DNA of 35,148 bases, taken from positions 122,334 to 157,481 of the forward strand of contig JACSRX010000052.1 of assembly GCA_014879535.1 (NCBI GenBank), given 5' to 3'. The DNA comes from Chthoniobacterales bacterium. Lineage in GTDB: Bacteria > Verrucomicrobiota > Verrucomicrobiia > Chthoniobacterales > JACTMZ01. Below, one piece after another: positions 14,393 through 35,148 of this stretch (position 1 is the first letter of the stretch; every line of letters starts with the position of its first letter). Both the position numbers and the translations under genes were made by a program. The notes under the pieces are model-generated. The model was given only the letters and a program-made list of their open reading frames with translations, did no database searches and had not been told where the DNA came from.

Positions 14393-14466
14393 AGGCTTGT
14401 TCCCTCCGTTTAGCACGGGAAAAGACCCGAGTCCACGGGAGCCCTCACGGCGCCGACCCACGCGAC

Positions 14467-15099: not shown

Positions 15100-15139
15100 A
15101 ATAAGCACTTGACGGGCGCTGTCCACCATGGTGAATTCA

Positions 15140-15153: not shown

Positions 15154-15161
15154 ATAATATC

Positions 15162-18617: not shown

Positions 18618-18730
18618 GCAGCACGCCACCTTTGATGGCGCGGAGCTGCAGACAGGATTTGGCGGGAGTCAGGAATGCACCAAAGGATGCCATTGCCCGA
18701 GCCTCGACGTTCTGCCAAAAACTCGGGCCC

Positions 18731-19729: not shown

Positions 19730-19835
19730 CCCGCCCCCGGGGCTGCAACAGGGACGAACCGACGCCCACCTCTCCAGATAACCGTGGACGAAGCCCGGCA
19801 ATGTGCGAAGCTCCCCCTCCGACTTCCACGGAACC

Positions 19836-20726
19836 ATGACGCGACTCCGCCCGCCGCTTGCAGCCGCCCTACTTTTCGCCGTCGCCATGGGCTGGTTGGC
19901 ACCCGCGCGGGCCGGATTGAACATCATTGCGCATGTGGGCGACATAGAACACCCGTCGGAGAACATCGTCGGCGGCGGAAATCTCACCGCGATTTTCAAC
20001 CAGGCCGTCCTCAACTGGGAACTCGCCTACCCGGATCCCGACCAGGAATGGACGCTTGATCTGACCTACCACTGGGATGAGTTGGACGTGAGCCTCGTCG
20101 CCCAGTTCTCCTTGCTGACCGTTGACGAAAACACCGGACGCATTCGCTCCGGATCAATCGCTTTCAACAACCTCAACTCTCCGCAGATTTCCTGGTTCGC
20201 CGATCCCAACCCGGAAATCGTCATGGGCAATCCGGCGTTCACCGGCGGGCTGGTGATCAGCAACCAAGTCGTCGTGGTGGGCGGCGTCGATACGGAGCTC
20301 AACGTCGGCATCACGTTTGCAGCGGCGCCCGACAGTCCCGCCTACGGAAGGTCGGACATGCTGACCATAGCCATGCACGAAATCGGCCATGGGCTCGGGT
20401 TGCTATACGATCCTCCGCACTATGAACCCACCAACCCGCTGGTCGTGACAGAAGCCGTGTCCCCTGCCTATGCGGGATATGAAATTTATGTCGATCGGGG
20501 CGAACACCTTGCCCGTCCCTCGTTGATGGAGGACAAAACAGACTTGGGAACCCGCGTTTACCCCTCCGTGAACGACATCCTCGCGATGGCCGTCATCGCG
20601 TCCTACGACAACCCGGTTTTGAATCCCCAGAACATTCCGGGAGTCGCCGTGCCCGAACCCTCGACCCTCCTCCTCAGTCTCACCGGCCTCGCGCTCCTGC
20701 TGTGGCGTCGGTTGGGCGGCCGTTAA
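19836..20726 (+). CDS. PEP-CTERM zinc metalloprotease-like protein
   Basis: A 296-residue exported protein with an N-terminal signal peptide (MTRLRPPLAAALLFAVAMGW, cleavage after APARA). A metallopeptidase zinc motif HEIGHGLGLLYD starts at H181 (H181, E182, H185 visible), as in matrixin-like metzincins. The usual third ligand His at the eleventh position is Tyr here and is followed by Asp192; H195 is another candidate. The C-terminus is a PEP-CTERM sorting signal: VPEPSTLLL, a hydrophobic helix, then WRRLGGR. Family knowledge says such proteins are processed by an exosortase and associate with the outer surface or matrix. No exosortase gene is in the window. A GTG at 19803 is in frame, but the ATG at 19836 gives the better signal peptide. 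Confidence 0.82.
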   Translation: MTRLRPPLAAALLFAVAMGWLAPARAGLNIIAHVGDIEHPSENIVGGGNLTAIFNQAVLNWELAYPDPDQEWTLDLTYHWDELDVSLVAQFSLLTVDENTGRIRSGSIAFNNLNSPQISWFADPNPEIVMGNPAFTGGLVISNQVVVVGGVDTELNVGITFAAAPDSPAYGRSDMLTIAMHEIGHGLGLLYDPPHYEPTNPLVVTEAVSPAYAGYEIYVDRGEHLARPSLMEDKTDLGTRVYPSVNDILAMAVIASYDNPVLNPQNIPGVAVPEPSTLLLSLTGLALLLWRRLGGR

Positions 20727-20783
20727 ACAGTCGCTTTCCCCCGGACACCGGCTTCCGCTCGAATCAAAGCCGCCAATCCCCGC

Positions 20784-22607: not shown

Positions 22608-22646
22608 GGGCGCGCAAACCTGCCGCAATCCCGCCCGGGCGCAATC

Positions 22647-22757
22647 TCAAAGTCGGTCCAAGAGCAGATCGTCCCACCCCGGAACGAGATAGCGAGCGCA
22701 AAGCTGCCGAATAGCTGCAAGGTCGATATCGGGGTCCACCAACACCGGTCCCTTCAC
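22647..22757 (-). pseudogene. Short stub of a toxin-antitoxin partner gene (MNT- or PIN-like N-terminus)
   Basis: A GTG codon overlapping the stop of the upstream antitoxin (GTGA) begins a 36-codon frame. The product contains VLVDPDIDLAAIRQLCARY and then ends abruptly. The DPDIDLAAIRQLCARY part resembles the N-terminus of minimal nucleotidyltransferases (MNT), before their GSxxR catalytic motif; the preceding GPVLVD resembles the start of PIN toxins. In either case the catalytic part is missing. The GTGA overlap is typical of toxin-antitoxin gene pairs. It is interpreted as a truncated partner gene, though a real small protein cannot be excluded. Confidence 0.45.
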
Positions 22758-22996
22758 CGCCCGAAAGCATCCATGTGCTTGGAATTCGTCGCAAGGTCGC
22801 GCGGCAGTCCCTTGAGCGTGCCCGCGAGATCTGTCGCCAGGCCATAACAGGTTTCCTTTCCCCCATGAACAGGGGCCGCAAGCGACTCTTCGAGGCACGC
22901 ACGAACGACCGCCGACTTGGTCGTGCCACGGTCCTGCGACACTTTTTCCCGCTCGAGAACGTGATCCGGCAACCTGAGCGAAACCGTGGTCATCAT
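22754..22996 (-). CDS. Ribbon-helix-helix antitoxin-like protein
   Basis: An 80-residue protein from the first of two adjacent ATG codons (22996 and 22993). Its N-terminus TTVSLRLPDHVLEREK followed by RGTTKSAVVRACLEESLA is a typical ribbon-helix-helix (CopG/MetJ-like) DNA-binding domain. The C-terminal half (YGLATDLAGTLKGLPRDLATN) is like the toxin-binding tails of antitoxins paired with PIN toxins in this family. It would bind DNA as a dimer of dimers and autoregulate. An inverted repeat GTATCG-N5-CGATAC lies 19-35 bp upstream of the start and is the likely operator. The gene after it is only a stub, so this looks like an orphan antitoxin. It may be kept as a regulator or as protection against a related toxin. 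Confidence 0.72.
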   Translation of the reverse strand: MMTTVSLRLPDHVLEREKVSQDRGTTKSAVVRACLEESLAAPVHGGKETCYGLATDLAGTLKGLPRDLATNSKHMDAFGR

Positions 22997-23014
22997 GGAG
23001 AAGCAATACACACC

Positions 23015-23031
23015 GTATCGGTGCGCGATAC
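23015..23031. promoter_or_regulatory. Inverted repeat, likely operator of the RHH antitoxin
   Basis: GTATCG and CGATAC form perfect 6-bp arms around a 5-bp spacer. The centre lies about 27 bp upstream of the antitoxin start on the minus strand, where an autoregulatory operator would be expected. Ribbon-helix-helix proteins bind such short palindromes. Confidence 0.45.
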
Positions 23032-23103
23032 CGGCGCCATTCCGGTTTTGCAAGACGATGTTGGAGCAACTTTGGGCAAAGCCTTGTTTTTGCGACAACG
23101 CTT

Positions 23104-23346
23104 CTACCTTAGATATGGCTGGATGCTTGGTAAATGAGGATCTTCTTCTGCAATTTTTTGTGCAAGTTTCCCCGCAGTAATCCGATCACCGGCCTCGACA
23201 GCCGCATAAAACTTCTCGCGAATAGCAACTGGAAGAAAGTCTTCAGAAAACAGAGACCAGTTATCATTGAGCAACTGAATCGCATCCGCGAACTGCCCTT
23301 TTGCACGAAGCACCACAGCCGTTAGTATTATGTCGCGCTCACTCAT
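23104..23346 (-). CDS. Small helical protein, unknown function
   Basis: This gene is not recognised. It encodes 80 residues without signal peptide or membrane segment. The sequence (ILTAVVLRAKGQFADAIQLL, then FYAAVEAGDRITAGKLAQKIAEEDP) reads as paired amphipathic helices and resembles a single tetratricopeptide-type unit, so a small scaffold or protein-binding role is possible. The start ATG lies 4 bp after the stop of the glycine-rich PEP-CTERM gene, so the two are very likely translated from one mRNA with coupling. A longer in-frame start at 23376 would overlap that gene. Base composition is AT-richer than the surrounding core genes. Confidence 0.6.
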   Translation of the reverse strand: MSERDIILTAVVLRAKGQFADAIQLLNDNWSLFSEDFLPVAIREKFYAAVEAGDRITAGKLAQKIAEEDPHLPSIQPYLR

Positions 23347-23350
23347 GTTG

Positions 23351-24142
23351 CTAATTCCGAGGACTCCTTGAAACATTTCTTATCCGGGTGAGTCGCGCCG
23401 AAGCAGTCAACGCGCCTGCAATTGCGATTAAGGTTACCACAGACGGCTCTGGAACTACTGTGATGGTGGCAGTTCCGTGAAGTTTGTCCGGCACAAGGCG
23501 CCCGACGGTATCCGTCACACTGATCCCGTCAATTACCTCGGGAGGCAGATAGTTGCTTCCCCCTCGGCCGTTGAACAGGCCCTCAGCCCCACCGTAATAG
23601 CCGCCACCTCCACCACCCTTCCAAGAATCGGACCCCACACCCAAGGTCGTGTTGAAGGGGCCGAAATTGCCTCCGCCACCGCCGTAACCAAGCGCTGAAC
23701 TGGCACCACCGCCTCCACCGGCTACGGCGATTCGATCCAACAAATCACCAACTCCGCCACGCAAATCGGTCGCCCCACCTCCGCCGCTGCTACTGCCAAC
23801 TGAGCCAGCGCCCCCTCCATTATAGCCACCTAATGCGGTCGTATTGGAATCATCCCCAAAGCCACCCACCACGATGTAGAGCGTCGATCCCGGAAGAACG
23901 GGAAGAATCCCACTTACCGACCCACCATATCCGCCATAAACGGTGTAGCTTCCGAACGCGTTCCCACCTGTGGCACCAGTGAGGGTGAAGGAAATATGAG
24001 TAACGTCAAGCGGCACGACCCAGGTTTGCACTGCTCCAGTGAAATTGAATGTCGTTGTCTGCGCCAAGGCCGCGCCGGTTCCGCAAGTAAGAAGCGCTGA
24101 TGCACTGATTATCGCTGCGATGTATCGGGTGTGTCGTTTCAT
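23351..24142 (-). CDS. Glycine-rich PEP-CTERM secreted protein
   Basis: A 263-residue exported protein. The signal peptide (hydrophobic core IIAAIISASALLTC region, cleavage after ALA near 27) is followed by a TTTFNFTGAVQTWVVPLDVT segment typical of the beta-sandwich start of glycine-rich surface domains. A long glycine-rich domain (about 50-200) contains GGYNGGGAGS, GGGGATDLR, VAGGGGGAS and GGGGGGYYGG stretches. A PEP-CTERM tail follows: VPEPSVVTLIAIAGAL, then an arginine-containing end. Gly-rich domains with GGGGATD and VAGGGGG motifs occur in surface-exposed structural proteins. The C-terminal tail directs exosortase-dependent sorting. No Shine-Dalgarno is seen. A small gene follows 4 bp later. 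The gene is somewhat AT-richer than its neighbours, consistent with an accessory origin. Confidence 0.82.
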   Translation of the reverse strand: MKRHTRYIAAIISASALLTCGTGAALAQTTTFNFTGAVQTWVVPLDVTHISFTLTGATGGNAFGSYTVYGGYGGSVSGILPVLPGSTLYIVVGGFGDDSNTTALGGYNGGGAGSVGSSSGGGGATDLRGGVGDLLDRIAVAGGGGGASSALGYGGGGGNFGPFNTTLGVGSDSWKGGGGGGYYGGAEGLFNGRGGSNYLPPEVIDGISVTDTVGRLVPDKLHGTATITVVPEPSVVTLIAIAGALTASARLTRIRNVSRSPRN

Positions 24143-24357
24143 GAGGTTTTTTGCGCGCCTGCTGTTCTCTAAACGTTGCTGTCAAAAGTGGCGTGCGGCC
24201 TTTTGCCGAGCGTTGTGCGTGTCCCGAAAGATGGAATGAGCAGGTGAACCTGATGAGGGAGCAGCGTGCGCTCGTGGTTTCTGTGCGCGATTTGTGAAAG
24301 AGGGGCGGCAGATTCGCGAATGTGTGCCCTGACTCACGTTGCTGCGAGTGGCCTTGG

Positions 24358-24381
24358 CAGCGCGGCGAATCCGCCGCGCTG
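24358..24381. repeat. Perfect 10-bp hairpin in the 346-bp divergent intergenic region
   Basis: CAGCGCGGCG and CGCCGCGCTG pair perfectly around the loop AATC. It lies between the glycine-rich protein gene (minus, starts 24142) and the XRE regulator (plus, starts 24489). No T-run follows on either strand, so it is not a classical terminator for either direction. The rest of 24143-24488 shows no gene that I can support, only this hairpin and the regulatory repeats near 24437-24480. Confidence 0.55.
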
Positions 24382-24436
24382 TTGAGGCTGATGAGTGACC
24401 TTCCCATGCCCATGGACAAGTGCTCATGGATTCACG

Positions 24437-24480
24437 AGGTAATACACACATAACCCCTCAGTCAAGGTAATACCGGTATT
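24437..24480. promoter_or_regulatory. Palindromic operator and repeated half-site before the XRE gene
   Basis: AATACCGGTATT (24469-24480) is a perfect 12-bp palindrome ending 8 bp before the GTG start of the XRE regulator. The nonamer AGGTAATAC occurs at 24437-24445 and again at 24465-24473, leading into the palindrome. The spacing of 28 bp places the repeats on nearly the same face after about 2.7 turns. This is the arrangement expected for autoregulation by a helix-turn-helix protein. Confidence 0.55.
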
Positions 24481-24488
24481 AAATCGGG

Positions 24489-24773
24489 GTGCCCCCACGC
24501 ATCACCCCTACAAAGCTTGCGCCCGGGCAACGGAACCTCTTGGGCCCGCTATTGCGTTCGCTGCGCGAGGAGCAGGGACTCACTCAAGCGACGATCGTGG
24601 GCAGGCTTCAGCGGAACGGTTGGGACATTTCTCGGCATGTTTACGGATTCATCGAAGACGGGTCCCGGGCCCTGACAGACCTCGAACTCTTCGCTATGCT
24701 CCAAGCGCTGGGGCGGTCTCCGAGGGATCTGGAGACTGGTTTCCGTGCTTTCTGCGCAAAACCGCAGCCTTGA
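24489..24773 (+). CDS. XRE-type helix-turn-helix regulator
   Basis: A 94-residue protein with a GTG start. The core LGPLLRSLREEQGLTQATIVGRLQRNGWDISRHVYGFIEDGSRALTDLEL region is the typical five-helix Cro/C1 (XRE) domain: the GLTQATIVGRL helix pair followed by the recognition helix and the ExGSRxLxDLEL segment that replaces the classic ExGxxxP. No second domain is present, so it should act simply as a DNA-binding repressor or activator. A perfect 12-bp palindrome and repeated half-sites just upstream suggest autoregulation. It may belong with the neighbouring accessory genes; it ends 20 bp from the convergent RelE toxin stop but has its own promoter region. Confidence 0.75.
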   Translation: MPPRITPTKLAPGQRNLLGPLLRSLREEQGLTQATIVGRLQRNGWDISRHVYGFIEDGSRALTDLELFAMLQALGRSPRDLETGFRAFCAKPQP

Positions 24774-24793
24774 GGCTGCGACGACGACCGCAA

Positions 24794-25081
24794 TCATCCT
24801 CCCTCCCCCTCGCTCCGTGCGAGGAAGCGGTGGAACATTTCGTAAACGACATCGCGGGTGTTGGCGTATTCGAGGCGGATTTCGCGGGCGGACATCTGGC
24901 GATACAGGATGCGGATGCCTCCGATGCGGAGGCGGCTGAAGCCTTCAAGATCGCCTTGCAGTCCCTTGATGTCGCCCCGCCCCCGCGTCAGCGCGCGCAG
25001 AGCGGCGCGCACTCGCTTCTTCGTCTGCGGAGGGAGGGCAGAGAGCCAGGCGGCAACCTGGTCAGAGGCCGAAATCTTCAT
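24794..25081 (-). CDS. RelE/ParE-family toxin
   Basis: A 95-residue toxin of the RelE/ParE superfamily. Signature features are the two N-terminal helices (AAWLSALPPQTKKRVRAALRAL), the GLQGDLEGFSRLRIGGIRILYRQ beta segment with conserved Arg residues, and the C-terminal RLEYANTRDVVYEMF strand. RelE enzymes cleave mRNA on the ribosome; ParE relatives block gyrase. The basic residues and the final Tyr (VVYE) fit the RelE branch better. The ATG at 25081 lies inside the end of the antitoxin gene (20-bp overlap), the usual order of antitoxin first. Length and motifs look complete, so this is the one apparently intact toxin in the 22.6-25.8 kb patch. Confidence 0.82.
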   Translation of the reverse strand: MKISASDQVAAWLSALPPQTKKRVRAALRALTRGRGDIKGLQGDLEGFSRLRIGGIRILYRQMSAREIRLEYANTRDVVYEMFHRFLARSEGEGG

Positions 25082-25313
25082 CCGCCAGATCCAAGGTGCG
25101 ATACTTGGCCCGACCCGAGCGGGCCGCCTCGACGGCCTTGAGGGCGGCTGGGTCGGCCAAAACATCCAACGTTTCCATCAGCGCTTCAAAATCCTCCACC
25201 GGCATGGCCACCACGACCGGGCGGTTGCGGTTGGAAATGACGAACCGCCGTCCCGAGCGGCAGAGTTTGGTCAACTGCGCCTGCGCTTCCCGCATATTGT
25301 AGGTAGCAATCAT
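25062..25313 (-). CDS. Phd/YefM-family antitoxin
   Basis: An 83-residue antitoxin. The N-terminal domain MREAQAQLTKLCRSGRRFVISNRNRPVVVAMPVEDFEALMETLD matches the Phd/YefM fold, in which a conserved NxxxVLxNRxxPxA-like strand region gives a dimeric DNA-binding unit. The C-terminal stretch (AALKAVEAARSGRAKY, then DEDFGL) is the flexible toxin-neutralising tail. It precedes and overlaps the RelE toxin gene, so the pair is co-transcribed. By family knowledge the antitoxin binds its own promoter, with stronger repression in complex with the toxin. No convincing palindrome was picked out in the short upstream region. The 146 bp between this gene and the next antitoxin at 25460 hold a frame without a start codon and nothing I can name. 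Confidence 0.82.
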   Translation of the reverse strand: MIATYNMREAQAQLTKLCRSGRRFVISNRNRPVVVAMPVEDFEALMETLDVLADPAALKAVEAARSGRAKYRTLDLADEDFGL

Positions 25314-25459
25314 GAATGTTGTCTATACGACGGGGATACCTGCAACGCAAGCGCTCCAAGGCGGCGGCACTCGGAGCGGTCGCGGTGGACGGCTCGCTGC
25401 CAAAGCCCGAGGCTGTGACGCATTTTGACAGCCGCAATTGAGCGACTCCTCATGCCAGC

Positions 25460-25735
25460 GTGCGAACAACGGTGACCCTCGAAAAGGACGTCGAGCGCCT
25501 GCTGCACGATGCGATGCACCGCTCGCGGAAGTCGTTCAAGCAGACGCTCAACGCGGCACTGCGGACCGGACTGAGCGTCCAGACCCAACCGCCCCGGCGG
25601 AAGCGATTCGTGGTGAAAGAGCGCCCCATGGGATTGCGTCAGCGGACCGATCCCGCGGGACTCAACCGCTTGGCCGGCGTCTTCGAGATTGACGCCCTCT
25701 GCTCCAAGCAGGTTTCCGGCGCGACCGCGGGATGA
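25460..25735 (+). CDS. Ribbon-helix-helix (VapB-like) antitoxin, orphaned
   Basis: A 91-residue protein with a GTG start. The N-terminus RTTVTLEKDVERLLHDAMHRSRKSFKQTLNAALRTGL is a ribbon-helix-helix DNA-binding domain of the kind found in VapB antitoxins. The remainder (RKRFVVKERPMGLRQRTDPAGLNRLAGVFEID) matches the toxin-binding tail seen before PIN toxins. Its stop overlaps the ATG of the next frame (ATGA), the standard VapBC junction, but that toxin frame ends after 12 codons. The antitoxin therefore survives without its toxin. It could still regulate its promoter or neutralise a related toxin elsewhere. Confidence 0.75.
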   Translation: MRTTVTLEKDVERLLHDAMHRSRKSFKQTLNAALRTGLSVQTQPPRRKRFVVKERPMGLRQRTDPAGLNRLAGVFEIDALCSKQVSGATAG

Positions 25736-25770
25736 TCATTCCCGACGTCAACCTGCTGCTTTGCGCTTGA
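25732..25770 (+). pseudogene. Truncated PIN-domain (VapC-like) toxin
   Basis: The ATG overlapping the antitoxin stop begins the peptide MIIPDVNLLLCA and then hits TGA. MIIPDVNLLxxA is the standard opening of a VapC-type PIN ribonuclease, containing the first metal-binding Asp. The three frames downstream contain no continuation of a PIN domain, so the rest has been deleted rather than merely frameshifted. The start match plus the ATGA junction makes the identification firm despite the short length. Confidence 0.7.
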
Positions 25771-25828
25771 AGCGCGGATTCCCAGTTCTGCGCTGCGTCA
25801 ATCCCCCGACCGAGGCGAGAATGCGCAG

Positions 25829-25858
25829 GCGGTAGGGCCGGGCCTCCGGGCCAACCGC
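25829..25858. repeat. GC-rich imperfect inverted repeat
   Basis: GCGGT...GGCC and GGCC...ACCGC form an imperfect 30-base inverted repeat with a very GC-rich centre. It lies just after the truncated VapC toxin and 31 bp from the stop of the minus-strand cyclase gene. It could mark the deletion point, be a REP-like repeat, or act as a terminator hairpin for the cyclase. Whether it recurs elsewhere in the genome cannot be seen here. Confidence 0.35.
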
Positions 25859-25889
25859 GGCTAAGCGAGCCATGCACCCGGCGCGAAAA

Positions 25890-27140
25890 CTACTCGGAGA
25901 AGCCGTCGAAAAAGAACATCTCCAACTCGCCGCAATTCTTCAGCGGGACAACCCCCCTCGAAGTGGCGCGGATCTGGCCGGCCAGCAGGTCGCGGAAATC
26001 CTTGGAGAGATTGATGCGACCGGGTTCCGAGGCCTGCTCCATGCGGGCGGCTGCGTTCACAGTGTCGCCCCAGATGTCATAGGCCATGCGTTTGATGCCG
26101 ACGACGCCGGACACCACGGGCCCGCAGTGGATCCCGATGCGCATTCCCCAGTATCGACGCCCGGAGGCCTCAACCTCCGCCTTGCGCTTGATGACAAAGT
26201 CCATGGCCTCCTTCGCAAAGCGGAGCAACCGCAGTGCACCCTCCAAGGGGTCGCCGTGGAGGCCGCTCACACAGAAGTAGCCGTCGCCGATGGTCTTGAG
26301 CTTCTCCACGCCATGGCGGCCGCACAGCCCGTCGAAGAGGCAGAAACAGCGGTTGAGTTCCTCGACCAGCTCCGCGGCCGAGTAGGTGGATGCCACGGAG
26401 GTGAAGGAGCTGAAGTCGGCGAAAAGAACCGAGACCATTTCATGGGCGACGGCTTTGACCCGGCCGTTGCGCTTGAGTTCGTCGGCCACCTCCCCGGGAA
26501 AGAGGTTGCGCAGCAGGATTTCGGAATGCTCCTTTTCCTCCGAAAGCGCTTCGACAGCGGCCTCGAGCTCCCGGCTCTGCCGTTCGATTTCCTCCTTCGC
26601 CTTGAGGTTTTCGATCTGCATCTGGATCTGGTCCAGAAGCGTGAATTCCCGCTCCACCAACCCGGCAAGTTGCTGGAGCAATTTCAGGTCATGCCCGCTC
26701 AGCTCCCGCGGCTCGCGATCGGCCAGGCAGAGGGTTCCCACTTTGTGCCCGGAGGGACCGCGCAAGGGCTGCCCCACGTAAAATCGGATGAAGGGCTCCC
26801 CCTGCACCATGGGATTTCCGGCAAAGCGGTAATCCTGCAGGGCATCCGGCACCACCATCGCCTCATCCTGCAGGATGGCATGTCCGCAGAATGAGATGTC
26901 CCGCGCCGTCTCGGAGGGCTTGAGGCCGACTTTGGATTTGAACCACTGCCGATCCTTGTCGATGAGGGCGATGTAGGCGATGGGGACGGAGAACAGGAGC
27001 TGGGCGAGATTCACGATGCGGTCGAACCTTTCCTCCTGCGGCGTGGCCACCAACCGGAGGTCATCGACCGCCTGTTGCCGCTCGGCCTCATCCAGAGGAA
27101 TCTCCGGCATCACACAGTTTGCCCCGATGCGCGAAGTCAT
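25890..27140 (-). CDS. GAF-domain class III adenylate cyclase
   Basis: A 416-residue soluble signalling enzyme. An N-terminal GAF domain (about 33-172) includes IAYIALIDKDRQWFKSKVGL, SFCGHAIL and GTLCLADREPREL. A coiled-coil linker (about 173-212, rich in E/R/L) leads into a class III nucleotide cyclase domain. Catalytic residues are visible: metal ligands D242 (VSVLFADFSSFT) and D286 (TIGDGYF), purine-binding K282 and D359 (KTIGDG, IWGDTVN), and N362/R366 of NAAAR for transition-state binding. The Lys/Asp pair marks it as adenylate rather than guanylate cyclase. The product is expected to be cAMP made in response to an unknown GAF ligand. It has no membrane segments. Start choices lie at 27206, 27140 and 27110; 27140 was chosen, without a clear ribosome binding site. 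No cAMP receptor is in the window. Confidence 0.9.
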   Translation of the reverse strand: MTSRIGANCVMPEIPLDEAERQQAVDDLRLVATPQEERFDRIVNLAQLLFSVPIAYIALIDKDRQWFKSKVGLKPSETARDISFCGHAILQDEAMVVPDALQDYRFAGNPMVQGEPFIRFYVGQPLRGPSGHKVGTLCLADREPRELSGHDLKLLQQLAGLVEREFTLLDQIQMQIENLKAKEEIERQSRELEAAVEALSEEKEHSEILLRNLFPGEVADELKRNGRVKAVAHEMVSVLFADFSSFTSVASTYSAAELVEELNRCFCLFDGLCGRHGVEKLKTIGDGYFCVSGLHGDPLEGALRLLRFAKEAMDFVIKRKAEVEASGRRYWGMRIGIHCGPVVSGVVGIKRMAYDIWGDTVNAAARMEQASEPGRINLSKDFRDLLAGQIRATSRGVVPLKNCGELEMFFFDGFSE

Positions 27141-27299
27141 GGCCGGGAATCTCAAACCCACCCGGACCCCTGTCAAGCCCCTTGCCCGGCTGAAGTTCGG
27201 TGCCAACCAACGATAACCACACCCTACAGGCTCGTCCGGGATGTGCGCCTGCCCATCATCCGACAGATTGGGACCAGCTTTGATGCCAAATCAAAAAGT

Positions 27300-28598
27300 T
27301 CACGGGACCGGAACCGCAGGTCCCTGCATGGATGAGAAATAGGCGGAATCGAATGGCTGTCCTTCATCAAGCCAGAAAGCAAGCTGACCCGAATGATCAC
27401 GGCCGGAGCGCAGGCGTGGGCGATTTCTCTGATACCATTCGAGGAAGCTGGGTAAATTTTCCGGAAAGCGGAAAAATGATTTGAGGGTTCTGCTGAGAGA
27501 GGATCGTTCGCTATCGGAGGTGGATGGATTGGCCATGCGCTGCACAACAGCATCGAATCCTTGGAGATCACCATGACAGGCAAGGGTCATGGCAGCATCG
27601 GGCCATGTCGGGCCGAAACTGCGCGTCTGGAAGGAAATCGGCAACAACTGGCGACGCGCCTCATCAACATCAATCCAAGCAAGAATGTTGCCGAAGTCTT
27701 CCGAACGAGCTTGGGCAACCGCATCGTAATCTCGCCCGTTGATTTCCATACGCCTCAAAATCTCACGCCGCAGGGTGGCATAGCTTTCTGTATCCTGCGC
27801 GGCAACGAGAAGATAGGCGCCGGCAACAAAGTCGCGGCTGTCGGACTTGGCGAGCGATCTCCCCAGCGCAACAGTGGTACGATCAAGCTGAGGTATCTTC
27901 GCAGTCACGCAATACCACGGGGAATCCTGCGAGTCAGAAAGGGCCTGCAAGAGGGTCTTGCGATAGTCTTTGTCCTCACCGGCTACATCGGAGGGAATGG
28001 CGAGTCCGGCAGCGACCAACTTGAGGCCGAGGTCAACCGTGTCATGGCTTGGCAATCGTCGCGGAAGGAGCGTGGGAAAGAAAGTGTTGCCGCACCAATA
28101 ATTCATCCGGCGCTGCGCGAGTGCATGTCCTTGGGGATCAACCTGAACGCTGATGGTATTGGTGCCTTGATTGAAGCCAAGCGCCCTCAGCAACTTGAAA
28201 ACCCGCATGTCGTTCGCAACCGCCTCACTTCTTCCCGAAAGTTCACTCAGGTCAACCGATGTAGGAATGTAAATGTCCGCAAGGCTAAGCGTGTCGCCAT
28301 TGGAGAAGCGGAGTTGGTTGGGCGGCTGAAGAGAAACAAGCTTGCGGGCATTCGGGAGGGGAGGCGTCGTGACGACTTGCGCGGAACCATAAAGTTTGAA
28401 CCCGCTGAAGTGGAGGACGAGACCCATCACGGCCACAAGACCCGATATCACGATCCAATATCGGTTGCCAAAACGCATTGCCAGCAGAGGCAAAGCCACG
28501 AAGCCAATTATCACGAACACCTCCGTGATCATCAAAAACAGTGCCACCCCCAAAACCACGGCGAGGGAAATGGCCAAAATCCGGAAGAACAGCCGCAC
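27300..28598 (-). CDS. Unrecognised membrane-anchored protein
   Basis: This gene is not recognised. It encodes 432 residues with three N-terminal hydrophobic segments (about 5-24, 26-42, 47-66) followed by a large soluble region. The segment RFSNGDTLSLADIYIPT (about 97-113), with later HDTVDLGLKLVAAGLAIPSD, faintly resembles the order of strands in thermonuclease-like (SNase) domains, where NGDT and GLA-type motifs occur. Catalytic arginines and aspartates are not convincingly placed, so this is only a hint. The C-terminal 200 residues look helical (SYATLRREILRRMEI, ILAWIDVDEARRQLL) and may form repeats. Base composition is less GC-rich than neighbouring genes. The 160-bp gap to the cyclase gene holds nothing I can name. 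It is divergent from the Rieske fusion gene. Confidence 0.65.
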   Translation of the reverse strand: MRLFFRILAISLAVVLGVALFLMITEVFVIIGFVALPLLAMRFGNRYWIVISGLVAVMGLVLHFSGFKLYGSAQVVTTPPLPNARKLVSLQPPNQLRFSNGDTLSLADIYIPTSVDLSELSGRSEAVANDMRVFKLLRALGFNQGTNTISVQVDPQGHALAQRRMNYWCGNTFFPTLLPRRLPSHDTVDLGLKLVAAGLAIPSDVAGEDKDYRKTLLQALSDSQDSPWYCVTAKIPQLDRTTVALGRSLAKSDSRDFVAGAYLLVAAQDTESYATLRREILRRMEINGRDYDAVAQARSEDFGNILAWIDVDEARRQLLPISFQTRSFGPTWPDAAMTLACHGDLQGFDAVVQRMANPSTSDSERSSLSRTLKSFFRFPENLPSFLEWYQRNRPRLRSGRDHSGQLAFWLDEGQPFDSAYFSSMQGPAVPVP

Positions 28599-28634
28599 AA
28601 CAAACCTTAGCCAGCTGTGAGGATCATTCGCAAT

Positions 28635-28693
28635 GGCAGGAAAGCCTCCAAATCCACCTTCCTGCCCGCAGGAGTTTCCGCCATCTTCCTGCC
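28635..28693 (+). promoter_or_regulatory. Leader repeats that can pair upstream of the Rieske fusion gene
   Basis: GGCAGGAA (28635-28642) is complementary to TTCCTGCC, which occurs twice: at 28659-28666 and at 28686-28693, directly before the ATG at 28694. The first sequence can pair with either copy, giving two mutually exclusive hairpins, one of which would cover the start region. GCAGGAG at 28668-28674 could pair similarly. No known riboswitch class is recognised. This may be a simple leader switch or chance repetition. Confidence 0.35.
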
Positions 28694-29872
28694 ATGAATC
28701 CCTCCGCAGGCTCCCCTTGGCACCGCGTCGGCACGATTGACGGACTCAAGCAGCGCGAACTGCAATCGCTGATCATCGACGGACAGCCCGTCGCGCTCTC
28801 CTACAAAGACGGCCGGTTCGGGGCGATTTCCGGAAATTGTCCACATGCGGGCGGTCCACTCGGCGACGGCCAGCTCGCGGGCGAGAACATCCGCTGCCCG
28901 TGGCACGGCTGGAGCTTCAACCGCTGCAACGGCACCTCGGGGCTCGGCTACCCCATCGCCGTGCCCTCATTCGAGCTGAAGGAGGAAGACGGCGCACTGT
29001 GGGTGCGGTTCGACACCGCCACACCCGCACAAGTCCTGCAGCGCGAGCCGCACCCGTTGACCCGTCCGGTGCGGCGCGAACCGGGCCCCGTCCGCGTCTT
29101 CGGCATCTCCACCACCGGCATGGACGCGGAAGCGCCGCGGTATTCCACCTCGGACGACCTCCTCGCCGTGGCGCTCGACCACGCGCGCGAGTCTCTCGGG
29201 TGCGAGACCAAGCTCATCAAGCTGGCCGAGTTGAAGTTCCGGCATTGCGAGGGCTACTACTCGAAGGCCGCCCCGGCCTGCACCTGGCCCTGCAGCATCA
29301 CGCAGATGGATGCGGAAGACGGACTTGAACCCGTCTATGAGGCCCTCGTGCACTGGGCCGACGTCGTGCTCGTCGCCACGCCCATCCGCTGGGGCGCCGC
29401 CAGCTCGCTCTATTTCAAATTGGCCGAGCGCATGAATTGCATCCAGAACCAGCTCACGCTCAACGACACCGCACTCATCCAGAACAAGGTGGCCTCGTTC
29501 ATCATCACCGGCGGACAGGACAACGTCCAAGGCGTCGCCGGCCAGATGCTCGCGTTCTTCAGCGAACTCGGCTTCACCTTCCCGCAATTCCCCTTTGTCG
29601 CCCACAGCCGCGGCTGGACGGCCGAGGATATGGAAAACAACGTCCGCTTCGTGCAGACGAACGAGGAACTCCGCCAAGGCACCCGCGAACTTGCCACCCG
29701 CGCGGTCGCCACCGCCCGGGCCCTCCTCGATGCTGCAGACCAGCCCAAGCACGTTGCCCGCGGAGGACGCAAAGCCTGCGGCACCGCCGCTACAGCGGGA
29801 GAGGCGGAGTCTCCCCTCTCTCTCAACCCTCAACTTTCAACCCTCAACCATCCAGAAACTTCCCCGGATTGA
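28694..29872 (+). CDS. Rieske [2Fe-2S] / NADPH-dependent FMN reductase fusion
   Basis: A 392-residue fusion. The N-terminal Rieske domain (about 8-112) has both cluster motifs, CPH (C49, H51) and CPWHGW (C68, H71), 16 residues apart. A linker leads to a flavodoxin-like FMN reductase domain (about 128-360) with VRVFGISTTGM, TWPCSIT, WADVVLVATPIRWGAASS and FIITGGQDNVQG. The pairing suggests electron flow between a reduced flavin and the iron-sulfur centre, in the cytoplasm; partner and substrate are unknown. The start with MNPSAGSPW was chosen over longer frames because it fits the Rieske domain. The last residues (SLNPQLSTLN) are encoded by a (YYTCAAC)4 repeat array and are unlikely to be functional. 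The gene is convergent with, and its end overlaps, the FAD oxidase gene. Confidence 0.87.
   Translation: MNPSAGSPWHRVGTIDGLKQRELQSLIIDGQPVALSYKDGRFGAISGNCPHAGGPLGDGQLAGENIRCPWHGWSFNRCNGTSGLGYPIAVPSFELKEEDGALWVRFDTATPAQVLQREPHPLTRPVRREPGPVRVFGISTTGMDAEAPRYSTSDDLLAVALDHARESLGCETKLIKLAELKFRHCEGYYSKAAPACTWPCSITQMDAEDGLEPVYEALVHWADVVLVATPIRWGAASSLYFKLAERMNCIQNQLTLNDTALIQNKVASFIITGGQDNVQGVAGQMLAFFSELGFTFPQFPFVAHSRGWTAEDMENNVRFVQTNEELRQGTRELATRAVATARALLDAADQPKHVARGGRKACGTAATAGEAESPLSLNPQLSTLNHPETSPD
29821..29848. repeat. Heptad array A, (YYTCAAC)4 inside two gene ends
   Basis: Four exact 7-bp units follow each other: TCTCAAC, CCTCAAC, TTTCAAC, CCTCAAC. The array codes for the C-terminal tail of the Rieske fusion on the plus strand. 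On the minus strand the TCA at 29844-29846 supplies the TGA stop of the FAD oxidase. Unlike the other arrays it has no clear inverted partner upstream. Confidence 0.8.
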
Positions 29873-31226
29873 GCAGGTTGTGCGGATCGAGGGCGGTCTT
29901 GATGCGGCGGTGGAGTTCGTGGCTTCCGGCATTGACGGCTTGGGGCCACCAGCGCTTTTTGGCCAAGCCTATCCCATGTTCGCCGGTGATAACGCCGCCC
30001 ATGGCGAGGACGCCGTGGAAGAGCTTGTCGAGGGCTTGCTCCATCTTCGCGGCGGTGGCGGGATCGTCGGGGTTCTCGACCATGATGTTGACGTGGATGT
30101 TTCCGTCGCCGGCGTGGCCGAAGCAGGCGACGGGCACGCCGTAGTCGCGTCCCAGTTCCTCGCCGAAGCGGACGAGCTCGACGAGTTTGCCGCGCGGGAC
30201 GGCGATGTCTTCGTTGAGCTTTTTGAGTCCGGTCGCCTTGAGCGATGAGGAGAATGTGCGGCGCAAGGCCCAGAGGGCTTCGCAACCTTCCTCGGTGTTG
30301 GCACTTTCGACGGAGACCGCCCCGGCGTCCGTGAGGAGCCCGTGGAGATCGCGGACCTCGTCCTTCACGGCGGAGATTTGTCCGTCGATCTCGACGAGGA
30401 CGTGGGCTTCGCCGGGCGGGATGACGGTTTCGCCGCCGGCATGGCGGCGTGCGGCTTCGAGGGTGAAGCGGTCGGCGATTTCGAGGGCGGAAGGCAGGTG
30501 TCCCTGCGCGAAGACGGCCTGCACGGCGGCGGCGGCGCAGGCCATGTCGGGGAAGCTGGCGGAGAGGACGGCGCGGGCGGGCGGGGCCGGCAGGAGGCGG
30601 AGTGTCGCCTCGGTGACGATGCCGAGCATTCCTTCCGAGCCCGTGAAGAGCCCGACGAGGTCGAAGCCGGTCTTGTTCTTGTGGGTGCGTCCGCCGACGC
30701 GGGCCATGGTGCCGTCGGCCAGGACGACTTCCAGGCCGAGGACGTAGGGGCGGGTGACGCCGTATTTGAGGCAGCGGGGGCCGCCGGCATTGGTGGCGAT
30801 GTTGCCGCCGATGCTGCAGTCCTTGAGGCTCGCCGGATCGGGCGGATAGAAGAGGCCCTGCGCGCGGGCGGCGGCCTGGAGGCGCCCGGTGGTCACGCCC
30901 GGCTCGACCACGGCGACGAAATCGGCGGGGCTGATTTCCTTGATGCGGTCCATGCGCATCGTCGAGAGGACGATGCCGCCGCGCACGGGGACGCAGCCGC
31001 CGACGTAGCCGTGGCCGGCGCCGCGCGTGGTGACGGGGATGCCCTCGCGGGCCGCGATCTTCATCACGGCGGCGATGGCGGCGGTCGAGCGCCCGAAAAC
31101 CACGGCGTCGGGCCGGGCGCGGGCGAACCACTTGTCTCCGGAGGCGTCCTCAAGGGACGCGTCGTCCACCCGCACGGCGTCGATCCCCGCCGCGCGGCGC
31201 AACTCATCGAGGATCGGAGCGTCCAT
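29844..31226 (-). CDS. FAD-linked oxidase, GlcD/D-2-hydroxyacid dehydrogenase type
   Basis: A 460-residue flavoprotein of the VAO/PCMH fold. The N-terminal FAD-binding domain has VTTRGAGHGYVGG (about 68-80), the GGNIATNAGG motif and VVLADGTMARVGG. The C-terminal FAD-oxidase domain carries GHAGDGNIHVNI and GEHGIGLAKKRW, with the HxxGDGN metal/substrate-site histidines, and ends in LDPHNLLNPGKF. The family oxidises D-2-hydroxy acids such as glycolate, D-lactate or 2-hydroxyglutarate. GlcE and GlcF partners are absent, so the substrate is open. ATG at 31226 was chosen over an adjacent upstream GTG. Its stop codon lies within a heptad repeat array and its start faces another such array, so both ends are flanked by repeats. 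Confidence 0.87.
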   Translation of the reverse strand: MDAPILDELRRAAGIDAVRVDDASLEDASGDKWFARARPDAVVFGRSTAAIAAVMKIAAREGIPVTTRGAGHGYVGGCVPVRGGIVLSTMRMDRIKEISPADFVAVVEPGVTTGRLQAAARAQGLFYPPDPASLKDCSIGGNIATNAGGPRCLKYGVTRPYVLGLEVVLADGTMARVGGRTHKNKTGFDLVGLFTGSEGMLGIVTEATLRLLPAPPARAVLSASFPDMACAAAAVQAVFAQGHLPSALEIADRFTLEAARRHAGGETVIPPGEAHVLVEIDGQISAVKDEVRDLHGLLTDAGAVSVESANTEEGCEALWALRRTFSSSLKATGLKKLNEDIAVPRGKLVELVRFGEELGRDYGVPVACFGHAGDGNIHVNIMVENPDDPATAAKMEQALDKLFHGVLAMGGVITGEHGIGLAKKRWWPQAVNAGSHELHRRIKTALDPHNLLNPGKFLDG

Positions 31227-31233
31227 CACAAAA

Positions 31234-31342
31234 GTTGAGGGTTGAGAGTTGACAGAATGAAAGCGAGTGGGCCTGCGCGCGGGCAGCGATCCCGCGCAAG
31301 CAGCATATTTTCCCCCTCAACCCTCAACCTTCAACTCTCAAC
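31234..31342. repeat. Heptad arrays B and C, inverted pair upstream of the FAD oxidase
   Basis: Left arm (31234-31254): three units GTTGAGG, GTTGAGA, GTTGACA. Right arm (31315-31342): four units CCTCAAC, CCTCAAC, CTTCAAC, TCTCAAC. The arms are reverse complements of the same heptad, separated by 60 bp, and could fold into a long imperfect hairpin. The element fills the whole space between the FAD oxidase start and the fabI stop. Confidence 0.85.
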
Positions 31343-31356
31343 TTCGCGAAGCGCCC

Positions 31357-32133
31357 TTACATCCCCATGATCTCGTAGCCGCCGTCCACGTAGAGCACCT
31401 GCCCGGTGATCGAGGCCGCGCCGTCGCTGGCGAGGAAGGTGCCGGTGGCGCCGAGTTCGGAAGTCTCGCAACTGCGCTTGAGCGGGGCATGCTCCTCGTA
31501 GTGCTTCATCATCGAGGAAAACCCGGAGATGCCGCGGGCGGCCAGCGTCTGCACGGGACCGGCGCTGATGCAGTTGACGCGGATCTTCTTCGGACCGAGA
31601 TCGTAGGCGAGATAGCGGGTCGAGGATTCGAGGGCGGCCTTGGCAACACCCATGACATTGTAATGCGGGACGACCTTCACGCTGCCGAGATAGCTCATGG
31701 CTACGATGCTGCCGCCATTCGTCATGAACGGTTCGGCCGCGCGGGAGAGCGCGACGAGCGAGTAGGCGTTGATGTCCATCGCCGTGGAGAACGCCGAACG
31801 CGAGGTCGAGACGAAGTCGCCCTCCAGGGCCTCCTTGGGCGCGAAAGCCACCGAATGCAAAAGAAGGTCGAGGCGGTCTGTGTGGCCGCGGACCTTGTCG
31901 AAAAATGCAGCGATTTCCCCGTCCTTCGAGACATCGCAGGGATAAACATGCACGTCAGCGCCGAATTCGGAGACCAGTTCCTCGACATTCTCCTTCACCC
32001 GCTCACCCTGGTAATTGAAAATGAGGCTTGCCCCGGCTTCCTTCCACGCCTTGGCGATGGCCCATGCGATGCTGCGCTTGTTGGCGACCCCGAAAACGAC
32101 TCCGACTTTGCCCGACAGAATTCCTTCGCTCAT
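31357..32133 (-). CDS. fabI: Enoyl-[acyl-carrier-protein] reductase FabI
   Basis: A 258-residue enzyme for the last reduction in each fatty-acid elongation cycle, using NADH in the cytoplasm. The FabI-type nucleotide-binding motif GVANKRSIAWAIA starts at residue 15, and the catalytic Y-x6-K motif is Y158 and K165 (YNVMGVAK), with Y148 upstream, the same spacing as in Escherichia coli FabI (Y146, Y156, K163). Also present are HSVAFAPKEALEGDF and the C-terminal VLYVDGGYEIMGM. Length is normal. The start MSEGILSGK was preferred to an upstream frame that continues into the intergenic region. The 3' end lies 14 bp from heptad array C, and the start faces heptad array D before the divergent ATPase gene. 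FabI is the target of triclosan and some pyridine-type inhibitors. Confidence 0.95.
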   Translation of the reverse strand: MSEGILSGKVGVVFGVANKRSIAWAIAKAWKEAGASLIFNYQGERVKENVEELVSEFGADVHVYPCDVSKDGEIAAFFDKVRGHTDRLDLLLHSVAFAPKEALEGDFVSTSRSAFSTAMDINAYSLVALSRAAEPFMTNGGSIVAMSYLGSVKVVPHYNVMGVAKAALESSTRYLAYDLGPKKIRVNCISAGPVQTLAARGISGFSSMMKHYEEHAPLKRSCETSELGATGTFLASDGAASITGQVLYVDGGYEIMGM

Positions 32134-32236
32134 AAGGGGGCATCTTCGCCGAGGGGCCGCCCCTAGGTCAAATCCGGACCTGCTTTGCATCCCGGCCCCA
32201 AGAAGCTAAGAGTAGATGAAAGTCGATGGATGGAGG

Positions 32237-32295
32237 GTTGAGGGTGTGAAGGCAGCATTGCCGGGGCTCTCAACTCTCATCTCTCAACCCTCAAC
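32237..32295. repeat. Heptad array D between fabI and the P-type ATPase
   Basis: Right arm (32268-32295): four units TCTCAAC, TCTCATC, TCTCAAC, CCTCAAC, ending 6 bp before the ATPase ATG. Left arm: one clear inverted unit GTTGAGG (32237-32243) followed by a degenerate one. It occupies the divergent intergenic region where both promoters must lie. Confidence 0.8.
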
Positions 32296-32301
32296 CACTC
32301 C

Positions 32302-34959
32302 ATGTCCGCCTGCTGCCACAACACCGATTGCGACAAGGCGCCCGACCGGGACGAACTCGCCCGCGAAGCCCGCACTTGGCTGCGTCTCGGCATGGCCGGC
32401 CTCCTTGCGGCGCAGGCGATGATTTTCAGTCTGGCCGTCAACCTCTCGCCGGTCAGCGGCAACGCCCACACCGTCATCCACGGCGCCCTCGCCCTCTCCG
32501 CACTCGGCGTCTTCCTGCTCGCGGGGCTGCCCATCCTCCGCGAATCGTGGACGGCGGCGCGGCACGGACGGATCGTGTTCGAGCAGTTTTTCCTCGCGGG
32601 CATTGCCGGCGCCTTTGCGGCGTCGGTGCACAGTTCCCTCACCGGCGAGGGGCACGTTTACTACGAGATCGTCGCCGTCCTCGTCGCCATCTACACCTTC
32701 GGCACCCTGCTTGCGCGCCGGCGACGCGACGCCCTGCGCGATTCGATCTCGAAACTCGGCGCCGCCTTCGATTTCTGCGAGCGGCTGGACTCCCGGGGCA
32801 ATGCCGAACGCATCGCCGTGGAGCAGGTGGCTGCCGGCGACCAGATCCTCGCCGGGGCCGGACAGGGCGTGCCGGTGGATGGCGTCGTCATGGAGGGCAC
32901 CGCCCTCGTTTCCGAAGCCGCGCTCACGGGCGAGCCGTATCCCGTGGTCAAGCGCACGGGGGACACGATCCTTGCCGGCAGCCGCCTTGAGGACAGCAGC
33001 CTGCGCATCCGCGCAACCTCGGCGGGACGCTCCCGTCGCCTCGACCAGCTTCTCCAGTCCATCGACGAGGCCCGGCGCCATCCGGGCCGCATCCAGCGCG
33101 AAGCCGACCGCCTCGTCGCGTGGTTCCTTCCGCTGGTCATGCTGGTGGCGGCCGTCACCACCGCGGCATGGACGCTGCACAGCGGATGGGTCACGGGGAT
33201 TTTCAACGGCCTCGCCGTCCTTCTCGTCGCCTGCCCCTGCGCCATGGGGCTTGCGACACCGGTGGCCATCTGGGGTGCCTTGGCCGCACTGGCCAAGCGC
33301 GGACTCATCGCCCGCGGCGGCGACGCCATCGAGGCGCTTTCCGCCGTGGACACCACCGTCTTCGACAAGACCGGCACCCTCAGCGAGAGCGACGCGCGCC
33401 TCGTGGATTTTGTCTGCCTCCCCGGCACCGACCGAACCACCCTCCTCCGCGAAATCGCCGCGATCCAGACGGGCAGCACACATCCGATCGCCCGCGCCTT
33501 CCGCACGGCGGCCCCGGAAGAGTCCCCACTCCTTGCGCACGGCATCGGCATCCTTCCCGGCACGGGTATCGAGGGCGGCCTGCCGGACAACACCGTCCTC
33601 CAGATCGGCAACAAGACCCTCCTTGCGCCAGAGGACCGGCCCGCGGAACTGCGCGACCTGCTCGCCGTGGATGTTTCCGGAGGCCACGAGATCTTCATCC
33701 GCCGCAATGGGCGACTCTGCGGGCTTGCCGTCCTGCGCGAGTCCCTGCGCGACTCCGCCCGTGCCGCGCTCGCGGAGATGAAAAACCTCGGGCTGCGCAC
33801 GATCGTGATGACCGGCGACCGCGAGGAGAACGCCGCGCGCTTCGGATTCTCCGAGTGCCTCGCGGGAATGACTCCCGACGGGAAACTTCAGGAGGTTGAA
33901 AACCTCAAGCGCCGCGGGGATCGCGTCCTTTTCATCGGCGACGGCATCAACGACGCGCCCGCCATGGCGGCCGCCGACACGAGCATCGCGCTTGCCGCCG
34001 GCAGCGAGCTCCCGCGCGAAACCGCCGCGATGGAGCTCAACGGCCACGACCTGCGCGCCATCCCGCAATCCATCGCCCTCTGCCGCGCCACCGTCCGTGC
34101 CATCCGGCGCAACATCGCCTTTGCCGCCTGCTACAACATCGTCGGCATCGCCCTCGCCGCCGCCGGATTGCTCCATCCCATCGCCGCCGCGCTCATCATG
34201 CTCGTCTCCAGCATGACCGTCACCTGGCGGGTGCTGCGCGAAACCTCCGATGCCGCGCTGGAAAAATCCGCCGCAAACACGCACGCCGCCCCTCGCACCG
34301 CGCGACCGGCGCGGAGTTTCCCCCGCATCGAGAGCATCGTTTACGCCTCCGCCCTCGCGCTCCAGGGGCCGGCCATCGCATGGCTCGGCGGTTTCCACGG
34401 GACCCAGGGCGCAGGCTTCATCGCCCTGTTCCTCGCGGCCGGGGCCGCCCTCCTGCTCTGGTCGCGCGACCGTGTCTGGACCGCGCCGGCTCGGATGACC
34501 ATCGCCATGTTTTCCGTCGGCGGACTCACCATGCTCGCCGGCTGGTGGGCCGACGCCGGGTTCGCCGCCGTCGTGCGCGACGGGGTCTGCCTCTGCGGCT
34601 GCGCGAAGTCCAACATGGGCCTCGGGCTGCTGGTGAAATTCACATGGATGGACGCCGGCATGCTCGCCGCCGCCCTCCCCGCGCTCTTCATCGACCGCAG
34701 TGTGGCGCGGAGGTTTTCCATCCGCTTCTGGTGCTGGGGCGCCGGACTTGCCGGGATGTTCGCCGGCATGGAACTCGGGGCGCTCGCGCTCGCCGGGTTG
34801 CCCGTGACAGCTCCTTCCGCCCAGTTCTTCCTCACCTACGCCGCGATGGTCTGCGGCATGTGCCTCGGCATGCTCGCCGGCTGCGAAATATCTTCCAAGT
34901 TGCTTTCGCTTCCCGCACGGCGCAGGTTCCGCCACAATCCCACCGTCACGTCTCCGTAG
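32302..34959 (+). CDS. Cu-type P1B ATPase with C-terminal membrane extension
   Basis: An 885-residue heavy-metal transporting ATPase. Core motifs: TGE (209-211) in the actuator domain, CPC (311-313) in the transport helix, phosphorylation site D355 (DKTGT), HP (394-395), TGD (504-506) and GDGINDAP (546-553). The helix-7 YN (611-612) and helix-8 MxxSS (633-637) match Cu(I)-specific P1B-1 pumps. There is no N-terminal HMA domain; a short CCHNTDCD cluster at the start may take its role. The core normally ends near 650, but another 235 residues follow, with about five further hydrophobic segments and cysteine/methionine-rich patches CLCGCAKSNMG and MVCGMCLGMLAGC. This extension is unusual and could be a fused accessory metal or cytochrome-oxidase assembly domain. 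It starts 6 bp after a heptad array, and its stop lies inside the tRNA gene. Confidence 0.88.
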   Translation: MSACCHNTDCDKAPDRDELAREARTWLRLGMAGLLAAQAMIFSLAVNLSPVSGNAHTVIHGALALSALGVFLLAGLPILRESWTAARHGRIVFEQFFLAGIAGAFAASVHSSLTGEGHVYYEIVAVLVAIYTFGTLLARRRRDALRDSISKLGAAFDFCERLDSRGNAERIAVEQVAAGDQILAGAGQGVPVDGVVMEGTALVSEAALTGEPYPVVKRTGDTILAGSRLEDSSLRIRATSAGRSRRLDQLLQSIDEARRHPGRIQREADRLVAWFLPLVMLVAAVTTAAWTLHSGWVTGIFNGLAVLLVACPCAMGLATPVAIWGALAALAKRGLIARGGDAIEALSAVDTTVFDKTGTLSESDARLVDFVCLPGTDRTTLLREIAAIQTGSTHPIARAFRTAAPEESPLLAHGIGILPGTGIEGGLPDNTVLQIGNKTLLAPEDRPAELRDLLAVDVSGGHEIFIRRNGRLCGLAVLRESLRDSARAALAEMKNLGLRTIVMTGDREENAARFGFSECLAGMTPDGKLQEVENLKRRGDRVLFIGDGINDAPAMAAADTSIALAAGSELPRETAAMELNGHDLRAIPQSIALCRATVRAIRRNIAFAACYNIVGIALAAAGLLHPIAAALIMLVSSMTVTWRVLRETSDAALEKSAANTHAAPRTARPARSFPRIESIVYASALALQGPAIAWLGGFHGTQGAGFIALFLAAGAALLLWSRDRVWTAPARMTIAMFSVGGLTMLAGWWADAGFAAVVRDGVCLCGCAKSNMGLGLLVKFTWMDAGMLAAALPALFIDRSVARRFSIRFWCWGAGLAGMFAGMELGALALAGLPVTAPSAQFFLTYAAMVCGMCLGMLAGCEISSKLLSLPARRRFRHNPTVTSP

Positions 34960-35021
34960 TTCAACGGATAGAATAGAGGTTTCCTAAACCTTAGATCCGG
35001 GTTCGATTCCCGGCGGAGACA
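34950..35021 (+). tRNA. tRNA-Arg (anticodon CCT)
   Basis: A complete cloverleaf can be drawn: acceptor arm GTCTCCG with CGGAGAC (34950-34956 and 35014-35020), a D arm, an anticodon arm with loop TTCCTAA giving anticodon CCT for the AGG arginine codon, and a T arm CCGGG-TTCGATT-CCCGG. The discriminator base is A, and CCA is not encoded. The first ten bases overlap the end of the ATPase gene, including its TAG stop. Confidence 0.93.
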
Positions 35022-35034
35022 AGCTGCAAGCATT

Positions 35035-35121
35035 GTTGAGAGTTGAAAGAAAGTGTCGCCCCGGCGGCGACTCCCGCAGGGCGCCTGATTCTCTCTCAAC
35101 TCTCATCCCTCAACTTTCAAC
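35035..35121. repeat. Heptad array E downstream of tRNA-Arg
   Basis: Left arm (35035-35048): GTTGAGA, GTTGAAA. Right arm (35094-35121): four units TCTCAAC, TCTCATC, CCTCAAC, TTTCAAC. The arms are inverted, 45 bp apart. The layout is the same as in the pairs at 31234-31342 and 32237-32295. The window ends 27 bp later. Confidence 0.82.
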
Positions 35122-35148
35122 TTCCCCCGGCCTCCCCCCGCCGATGTC

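Follow-up and report, generated by a model that had tools for sequence, protein, structure and literature searches.

A heptad array at the junction of convergent Rieske fusion and FAD-linked oxidase genes in a Chthoniobacterales genome

In the 35,148-nucleotide stretch of a Chthoniobacterales genome analyzed here (hereafter, the window), a gene for a Rieske fusion and a gene for a FAD-linked oxidase converge on a short heptad array. We consider it probable that this array is one arm, standing alone, of a bounded ~30-nt heptad motif that is dispersed in the genome and acts as a one-way sign for translation, by which the oxidase is stopped and the Rieske gene is read through.

The array and the two gene ends

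The array consists of four TCAAC heptads (TCAACCC TCAACTT TCAACCC TCAAC) at 29823-29848 on the plus strand, found as a solo arm by exact pattern match and also called at the junction by TRF as a 7-nt tandem array of ~4 copies. With at most one mismatch, the four-heptad pattern matched four times in the window (29.8-35.1 kb; Table 1) versus zero times in 100 dinucleotide-preserving shuffles. Codons 29822-29848, taken in the Rieske ORF frame, translate as LNPQLSTLN, with the S ahead of them contributed by the CTC edge of the motif; this confirmed the original prediction that the array writes SLNPQLSTLN at the end of the Rieske fusion. Its second proposal, that the minus strand of the array gives the convergent oxidase its TGA, also held, as this stop codon (29844-29846, minus strand) is the complement of the TCA within the fourth heptad. 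The span first given for the array (29821-29872) was wider than the repeat: the array proper ends at 29848, and the remainder is the shared antisense stretch plus the Rieske stop, with the Rieske ORF continuing past the array for seven codons antisense to the oxidase gene end until a TGA at 29870-29872. No GTTGAG partner arm accompanies the 29797-29822 hairpin at this junction.

Table 1. Coordinates of the junction features and of the other motif copies in the window
Feature	Position	Strand	Remarks
Rieske [2Fe-2S] + NADPH-dependent FMN reductase fusion ORF	28694..29872	+	Pfam PF00355, PF03358
Non-conserved 31-residue Rieske tail	29777..29869	+	14 residues from upstream segment, SLNPQLSTLN from arm, HPETSPD antisense to oxidase
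Hairpin GGGAGAGG..CCTCTCTC	29797..29822	+	immediately inside arm; fold of 29780-29860 weak, z -1.76
Bounded ~30-nt motif, full extent	29820..29849	+	CYC-TCAACYCTCAWCYCTCAACYCTCAAC-T; consensus of 38 arms, information falls at both edges
Tail-to-tail overlap of Rieske and oxidase genes	29844..29872	.	29 nt
FAD-linked oxidase, GlcD-like	29844..31226/31229	-	PF01565, PF02913; TIGR00387 under cut-off, 395 of 568 bits
Left arm (GTTGAG side) of paired element in fabI-oxidase gap	31234..31252	-	motif search
Right arm of paired element in fabI-oxidase gap	31317..31342	+	four-heptad pattern match
Arm 6 nt ahead of heavy-metal P-type ATPase gene start	32270..32295	+	four-heptad pattern match
Short left arm, 2 heptads, 13 nt past tRNA-Arg	35035..35046	-	pair with 35096..35121
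Right arm paired with 35035..35046	35096..35121	+	contig end 27 nt further on

Orthologues of both proteins were aligned. For the Rieske fusion, 84,980 species genomes were scanned and the best 80 of 241 relatives were kept, each read to its stop codon or contig end. The conserved part of the fusion finishes at 29776 with GGRKA, and GRK[A/G] was found near the end in 76 of the 80 loci (the exceptions being L062, L071, L073, and L112). After this motif come 31 residues in the window protein. For the 76 orthologues the median is 9 (range 2-42), and only L127 among them has a longer tail (42 residues), without any array. The closest of the best 80 relatives (L056, 77%) ends in GGRKASSSEK. The same tail without the repeat was not seen in any orthologue, since none of the 76 tails shares a 4-mer with that of the window and none of the 80 loci holds a heptad array. 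Of the proposal that insertion of the element moved both gene ends, the shift itself is thus supported for the Rieske protein, whose C-terminus has moved. Only ~10 of the 31 residues are coded by the array.

It is very unlikely that this tail is a functional, selected extension. In favour of such a role, 5 of the 8 genomes compared have retained a similar LipB tail in frame (see below); against it, no Rieske orthologue among the best 80 of 241 carries the same tail, and the oxidase gene, on the opposite strand, fixes part of the tail sequence. The tail also scores -0.195 per codon in codon usage, which is under every 31-codon window of the core (core mean 0.377), and residues 361-392 are predicted to be disordered (pLDDT <50; AlphaFold2 model, 26 sequences).

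The other half of the same proposal did not stand, in that the oxidase end was not materially moved. Oxidase matches occur in 200 of 286 genomes of the class, of which 30 loci were fetched, our own included. The window protein ends in NPGKFLDG, with 8 residues from NPG to the stop versus 6-11 in the 29 other loci, and these orthologues terminate -2 to +3 residues from the end seen in the window. None of the 29 has an array in the 120 nt past its oxidase stop. Judged by these alignments, the oxidase end is barely shifted, and its array-derived part is the stop codon alone. From the orthologue comparisons at both ends, we therefore regard the Rieske end as extended and the oxidase as merely re-terminated.

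The dispersed motif and its reading frames

The motif recurs in the same genome and in its genus. A search of the genome (3.17 Mb, 97 contigs) found 11 matches to the exact three-heptad pattern versus 0 for a reversed control; with up to two mismatches, there were 98 matches versus 64 for the control, so weak copies are unreliable. We fetched 26 stretches around matches and kept arms with at least three perfect heptads (39 of 46). Aligned at their outer ends, 38 arms gave a sharply bounded consensus, CYC-TCAAC-YC-TCAWC-YC-TCAAC-YC-TCAAC-T, with position-specific traits such as an A/T choice concentrated at the middle heptads. As the array is a tandem heptamer, it might be a slipped-strand tandem repeat (VNTR) grown in place; this is scarcely credible and was ruled out by the nearly fixed unit number, with exactly four heptads in 31 of 39 arms, and the sharp edges, the position-specific features, and the dispersal of the motif at unrelated junctions also argue against it. 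Of the 19 locus-centre arms taken from a class-wide scan, exactly four units were counted in only 11, five units in 5, and three in 3. In that scan, in which G103 and G091 had high counts, the exact three-heptad pattern was present in 54 of 286 genomes (own included), a tally that does not count true elements because the reversed control is often equally high in some groups, e.g., g25.

Arms are found at gene edges. Where a neighbouring gene lies on the outer side (34 arms), the start or stop of a gene is -19 to +21 nt from the outer end in 26 cases (median of the 34, 7.5 nt), and the median distance to a gene boundary on the inner side is 94 nt; stops (14) and starts (12) are both found within 30 nt of arms. 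Solo arms taken by themselves show this difference between outer and inner sides in 14 of 19 cases (sign p 0.064), which is only suggestive. Gene ends in this survey came from a purpose-written codon-usage caller rather than a standard gene caller. The original prediction had also held that the element can spread into coding sequence, which these positions bear out at gene edges only and not otherwise. An inward-facing partner lies within 320 nt of 16 of the 39 arms, and the 16 distinct pairs from our genome and its relatives have spacers of 16-163 nt with interiors that are unrelated by eye. In the window, a decayed left arm can be seen around 32232-32246, near the arm at 32270..32295. Contigs end at or just after arms in two places (window 35096-35148; G000 C42 60498-60525), and copies at assembly breaks may therefore be absent from the count.

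The two strands of an arm differ in what they do to a reading frame. On the GTTGAG strand, 37 of 39 arms have a stop in every frame (13% of mononucleotide shuffles); each 7-nt unit on this strand contains TGA, so three units suffice to close all frames. On the CTCAAC strand, 38 of 39 arms have no stop in any frame (56% of mononucleotide shuffles), and ATG, GTG, and TTG are absent from it in every frame. With stops on one strand and none on the opposite one, a solo arm stops one gene and lets the other read through. In seven cases, the stop codon of the abutting gene lies within the arm, among them that of the phosphoglucose isomerase gene on contig C8, which ends in KLRVGG and an arm-derived TGA; its congeners end in RRMNS and similar. 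Two arms are read through, namely the window array and an arm on contig C62 at the end of a LipB gene (PF21948; L184:7830-8495, G000 C62 13029-13694), whose protein ends in SSLNSQPSTQQP and which overlaps the next start as ATGA. Arm-like LipB tails of near-equal length are present in G003, G007, G009, and G010 and absent in G001, G004, and G005. The LipB tail is arm-derived and has apparently been passed on in frame within the genus, to five genomes. The end of C62 also matches ~300-nt tandem units on contig C63 (L184:9324-9656; G000 C63 3-1338).

We propose that gene edges are where the heptad motif inserts or survives, often with two arms that face inward (GTTGAG..spacer..CTCAAC), and that an intact pair shows its stop side to genes arriving from either flank. 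At the Rieske/oxidase junction, only the oxidase-side arm is present. The oxidase gene meets the stop side and terminates on the TGA of the arm, while the Rieske gene, having probably lost its own stop right after GGRKA, arrives from the spacer side, passes the open strand of the arm, and meets a chance stop in the stretch antisense to the oxidase. The missing left arm may account for the read-through, as such a partner would have stopped the Rieske frame, and the resulting tail would be translated and neutral.

Filled and empty junctions in congeners

The motif copies are best read as insertions because orthologous junctions in congeners often lack the element. From the fabI stop to the oxidase start there are 4-6 nt in all three congeners compared (G004, G007, and G009) versus 130 nt with an arm pair in the window. 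The C12 28751/28866 junction is empty in 7 of 9 congeners (G001, G003, G004, G006, G007, G008, and G009), with -4 to 16 nt between the genes, and its element of 112-115 nt is common to G002, G010, and our genome, the left arm being decayed in G010. At C47 7803/7900, 5 of 9 congeners lack the element: an 11-nt gene overlap is found in G005, G008, and G009, a 13-nt gap in G001, and 99 nt of unrelated sequence in G003. Arm pairs with differing spacers occupy this junction in G002, G007, and G010, and also in G004, at a contig end (counted as occupied). The arm was likewise absent from congeners at C47 8646/8718 (9), C62 8627/8772 (2), C8 21118/21144 (2), C8 26277/26614 (7 compared), and C12 23187/23522 (10 compared). 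No obvious target-site duplication was seen by eye at two compared sites.

Repeats of other kinds occur in these genomes as well. The copA-fabI gap of G007 (178 nt) holds another inverted repeat, and an inverted repeat other than the heptad arms, GGTGGATCGCG..CGCGATCCACC, occupies gene gaps of this genome (L137:1-720 and its glcD 3′ flank). A further dispersed repeat of ~60-137 nt has more than 10 genome copies of ~80-93% identity (L169:5391-5527; G000 C12 24890-25026).

At the Rieske/oxidase site itself, the searched congeners offer no empty junction because they lack the Rieske gene (one weak match of 29% in 10 congeners aside), and insertion, which is shown at the sister junctions above, is something that we infer there, since no relative was found with both genes adjacent and without the arm. 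In G007, the oxidase is followed by a FIST gene, which in the window lies at 11607-12797, so that 17 kb lies between the two genes in the window. Most of this block (12798-29843) lacks DNA matches in congeners, the exceptions being an ABC-F gene and some shorter stretches, and the array sits at its right edge. A rearrangement that joined the Rieske and oxidase genes may thus precede the insertion or be the same event, and we suggest that the arm arrived at the junction by insertion or rearrangement.

This setting bears on the explanation first offered, in which a single insertion of the array into the last codons shifted both gene ends together. The position of the array right at the junction agrees with this, as do the origin of the oxidase stop in the array and a Rieske tail that resembles none of those in the 76 orthologues compared; nevertheless, we find such a single event unlikely, as the oxidase end falls within the orthologue range, the 31-residue tail takes 14 residues from another, upstream segment and 7 from sequence antisense to the oxidase gene, and the absence of the Rieske gene from the congeners and the position at the edge of a block missing in G007 also speak against it.

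Folding, known repeat families, and significance

The arms and hairpins might instead be selected as RNA elements at transcript ends or leaders (stability, termination, RNase III, or translational control), with reading into coding sequence as a side effect. Paired elements do fold far better than shuffles (z -4.2, -4.1, and -6.7, with one at -2.7), arms lie near both stops and starts, and they remain recognisable at orthologous junctions whose spacers no longer align by eye. However, complementarity of arms was not in excess within as compared with between elements (16 pairs; permutation p 0.50 for mismatches and 0.98 for duplex energy), which ruled out arm-to-arm covariation as evidence for a selected hairpin, and the left arm is decayed in G010. 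The window array, moreover, has no partner, no terminator-like site was found at 29777-29872, and the lack of a U-tract after the array led us to drop an intrinsic terminator there. One minus-strand terminator-like match lies within the 35035-35121 element. Among Rfam covariance models run over 28600-35148, tRNA alone reached its gathering score, so the array has no Rfam family. We thus rate selection as an RNA element as a doubtful main cause, which leaves room for a regulatory role of the element.

Our preferred reading, a lone arm of a repeat family, raises the question of kinship with known elements. The heptad elements have terminal inverted repeats and filled and empty sites, as MITEs do, and no conserved shared interior. 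Integron attC sites were dropped as a candidate, as the units are tandem and the genes face both directions. In our view, the element is a repeat that is, or once was, mobile and that is tolerated at gene edges. Rickettsia palindromic elements are palindromic repeats found in frame within proteins, inside ORFs, whereas the present family sits at gene edges.

Small repeats that write C-termini or stop codons are already known (MacGregor 2015; Delihas 2007; PMC3733652). In the part of MacGregor 2015 (PMC4679880) considered here, direct repeats of the heptamer TAACTGA in Beggiatoaceae, Cyanobacteria, and Bacteroidetes are described as mostly intergenic and often a few nt ahead of starts, stopping all three frames in one orientation and being open in the other, which is read into protein ends. 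On that description, the window motif is alike in being a heptamer with stops in all frames one way and an open reading the other, and it differs in its unit (TCAACYC/GRGTTGA versus TAACTGA/TCAGTTA), in arms that abut stops as often as starts, and in paired inverted arms and a fixed four-unit length, neither of which is reported for the TAACTGA repeats in that part of the paper. For ERIC/RU-1 and related enterobacterial MITEs fused to ORFs, Delihas 2007 (PMC2759123, PMC2229807) gives an amidase, ECA3499, whose normal stop was removed by a mobile repeat and which gained a C-terminal tail beyond its conserved domain; such MITEs are copies of one 100-170 bp sequence, whereas the window family shares only its arms and has interiors that look unrelated. 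GTAG REPs, according to a 2013 BMC Genomics paper (PMC3733652), frequently supply stop codons, and GTAG/CGTC REP elements abound in O. terrae, which belongs to the same phylum. A GTAG or CGTC tag beside a short palindrome and a RAYT gene belong to such REPs; the arm consensus has no GTAG/CGTC tag and Y1_Tnp (RAYT, PF01797) had 0 matches in our genome (96% complete) while found in 5 of 14 control genomes, and a RAYT-associated REP was dropped on these grounds. A description of the TCAACYC heptad family was not found in the open-licence literature on Verrucomicrobia with heptamer, MITE, or REP repeats; the kind of effect is known, and the heptad family itself was not found described.

For annotation, LNPQPST-like tails in this group call for caution as repeat-derived sequence. 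The genus also offers natural pairs of filled and empty sites, including operon junctions where the genes overlap when the element is absent. The motif offers a testable rule on how small repeats can settle beside genes, that the reading-frame content of each strand sets whether a neighbouring gene is cut, capped, or extended. More broadly, and tentatively, Verrucomicrobia could carry a family of elements with paired arms, sharing their 30-nt heptad ends but not their interiors, that enters the start/stop junctions of operons and breaks neither gene. Its ends may work as directional gates for translation, stopping on entry and open on exit, so that insertion would be survivable by design and solo arms would give rise to inherited C-terminal tails, as in LipB.
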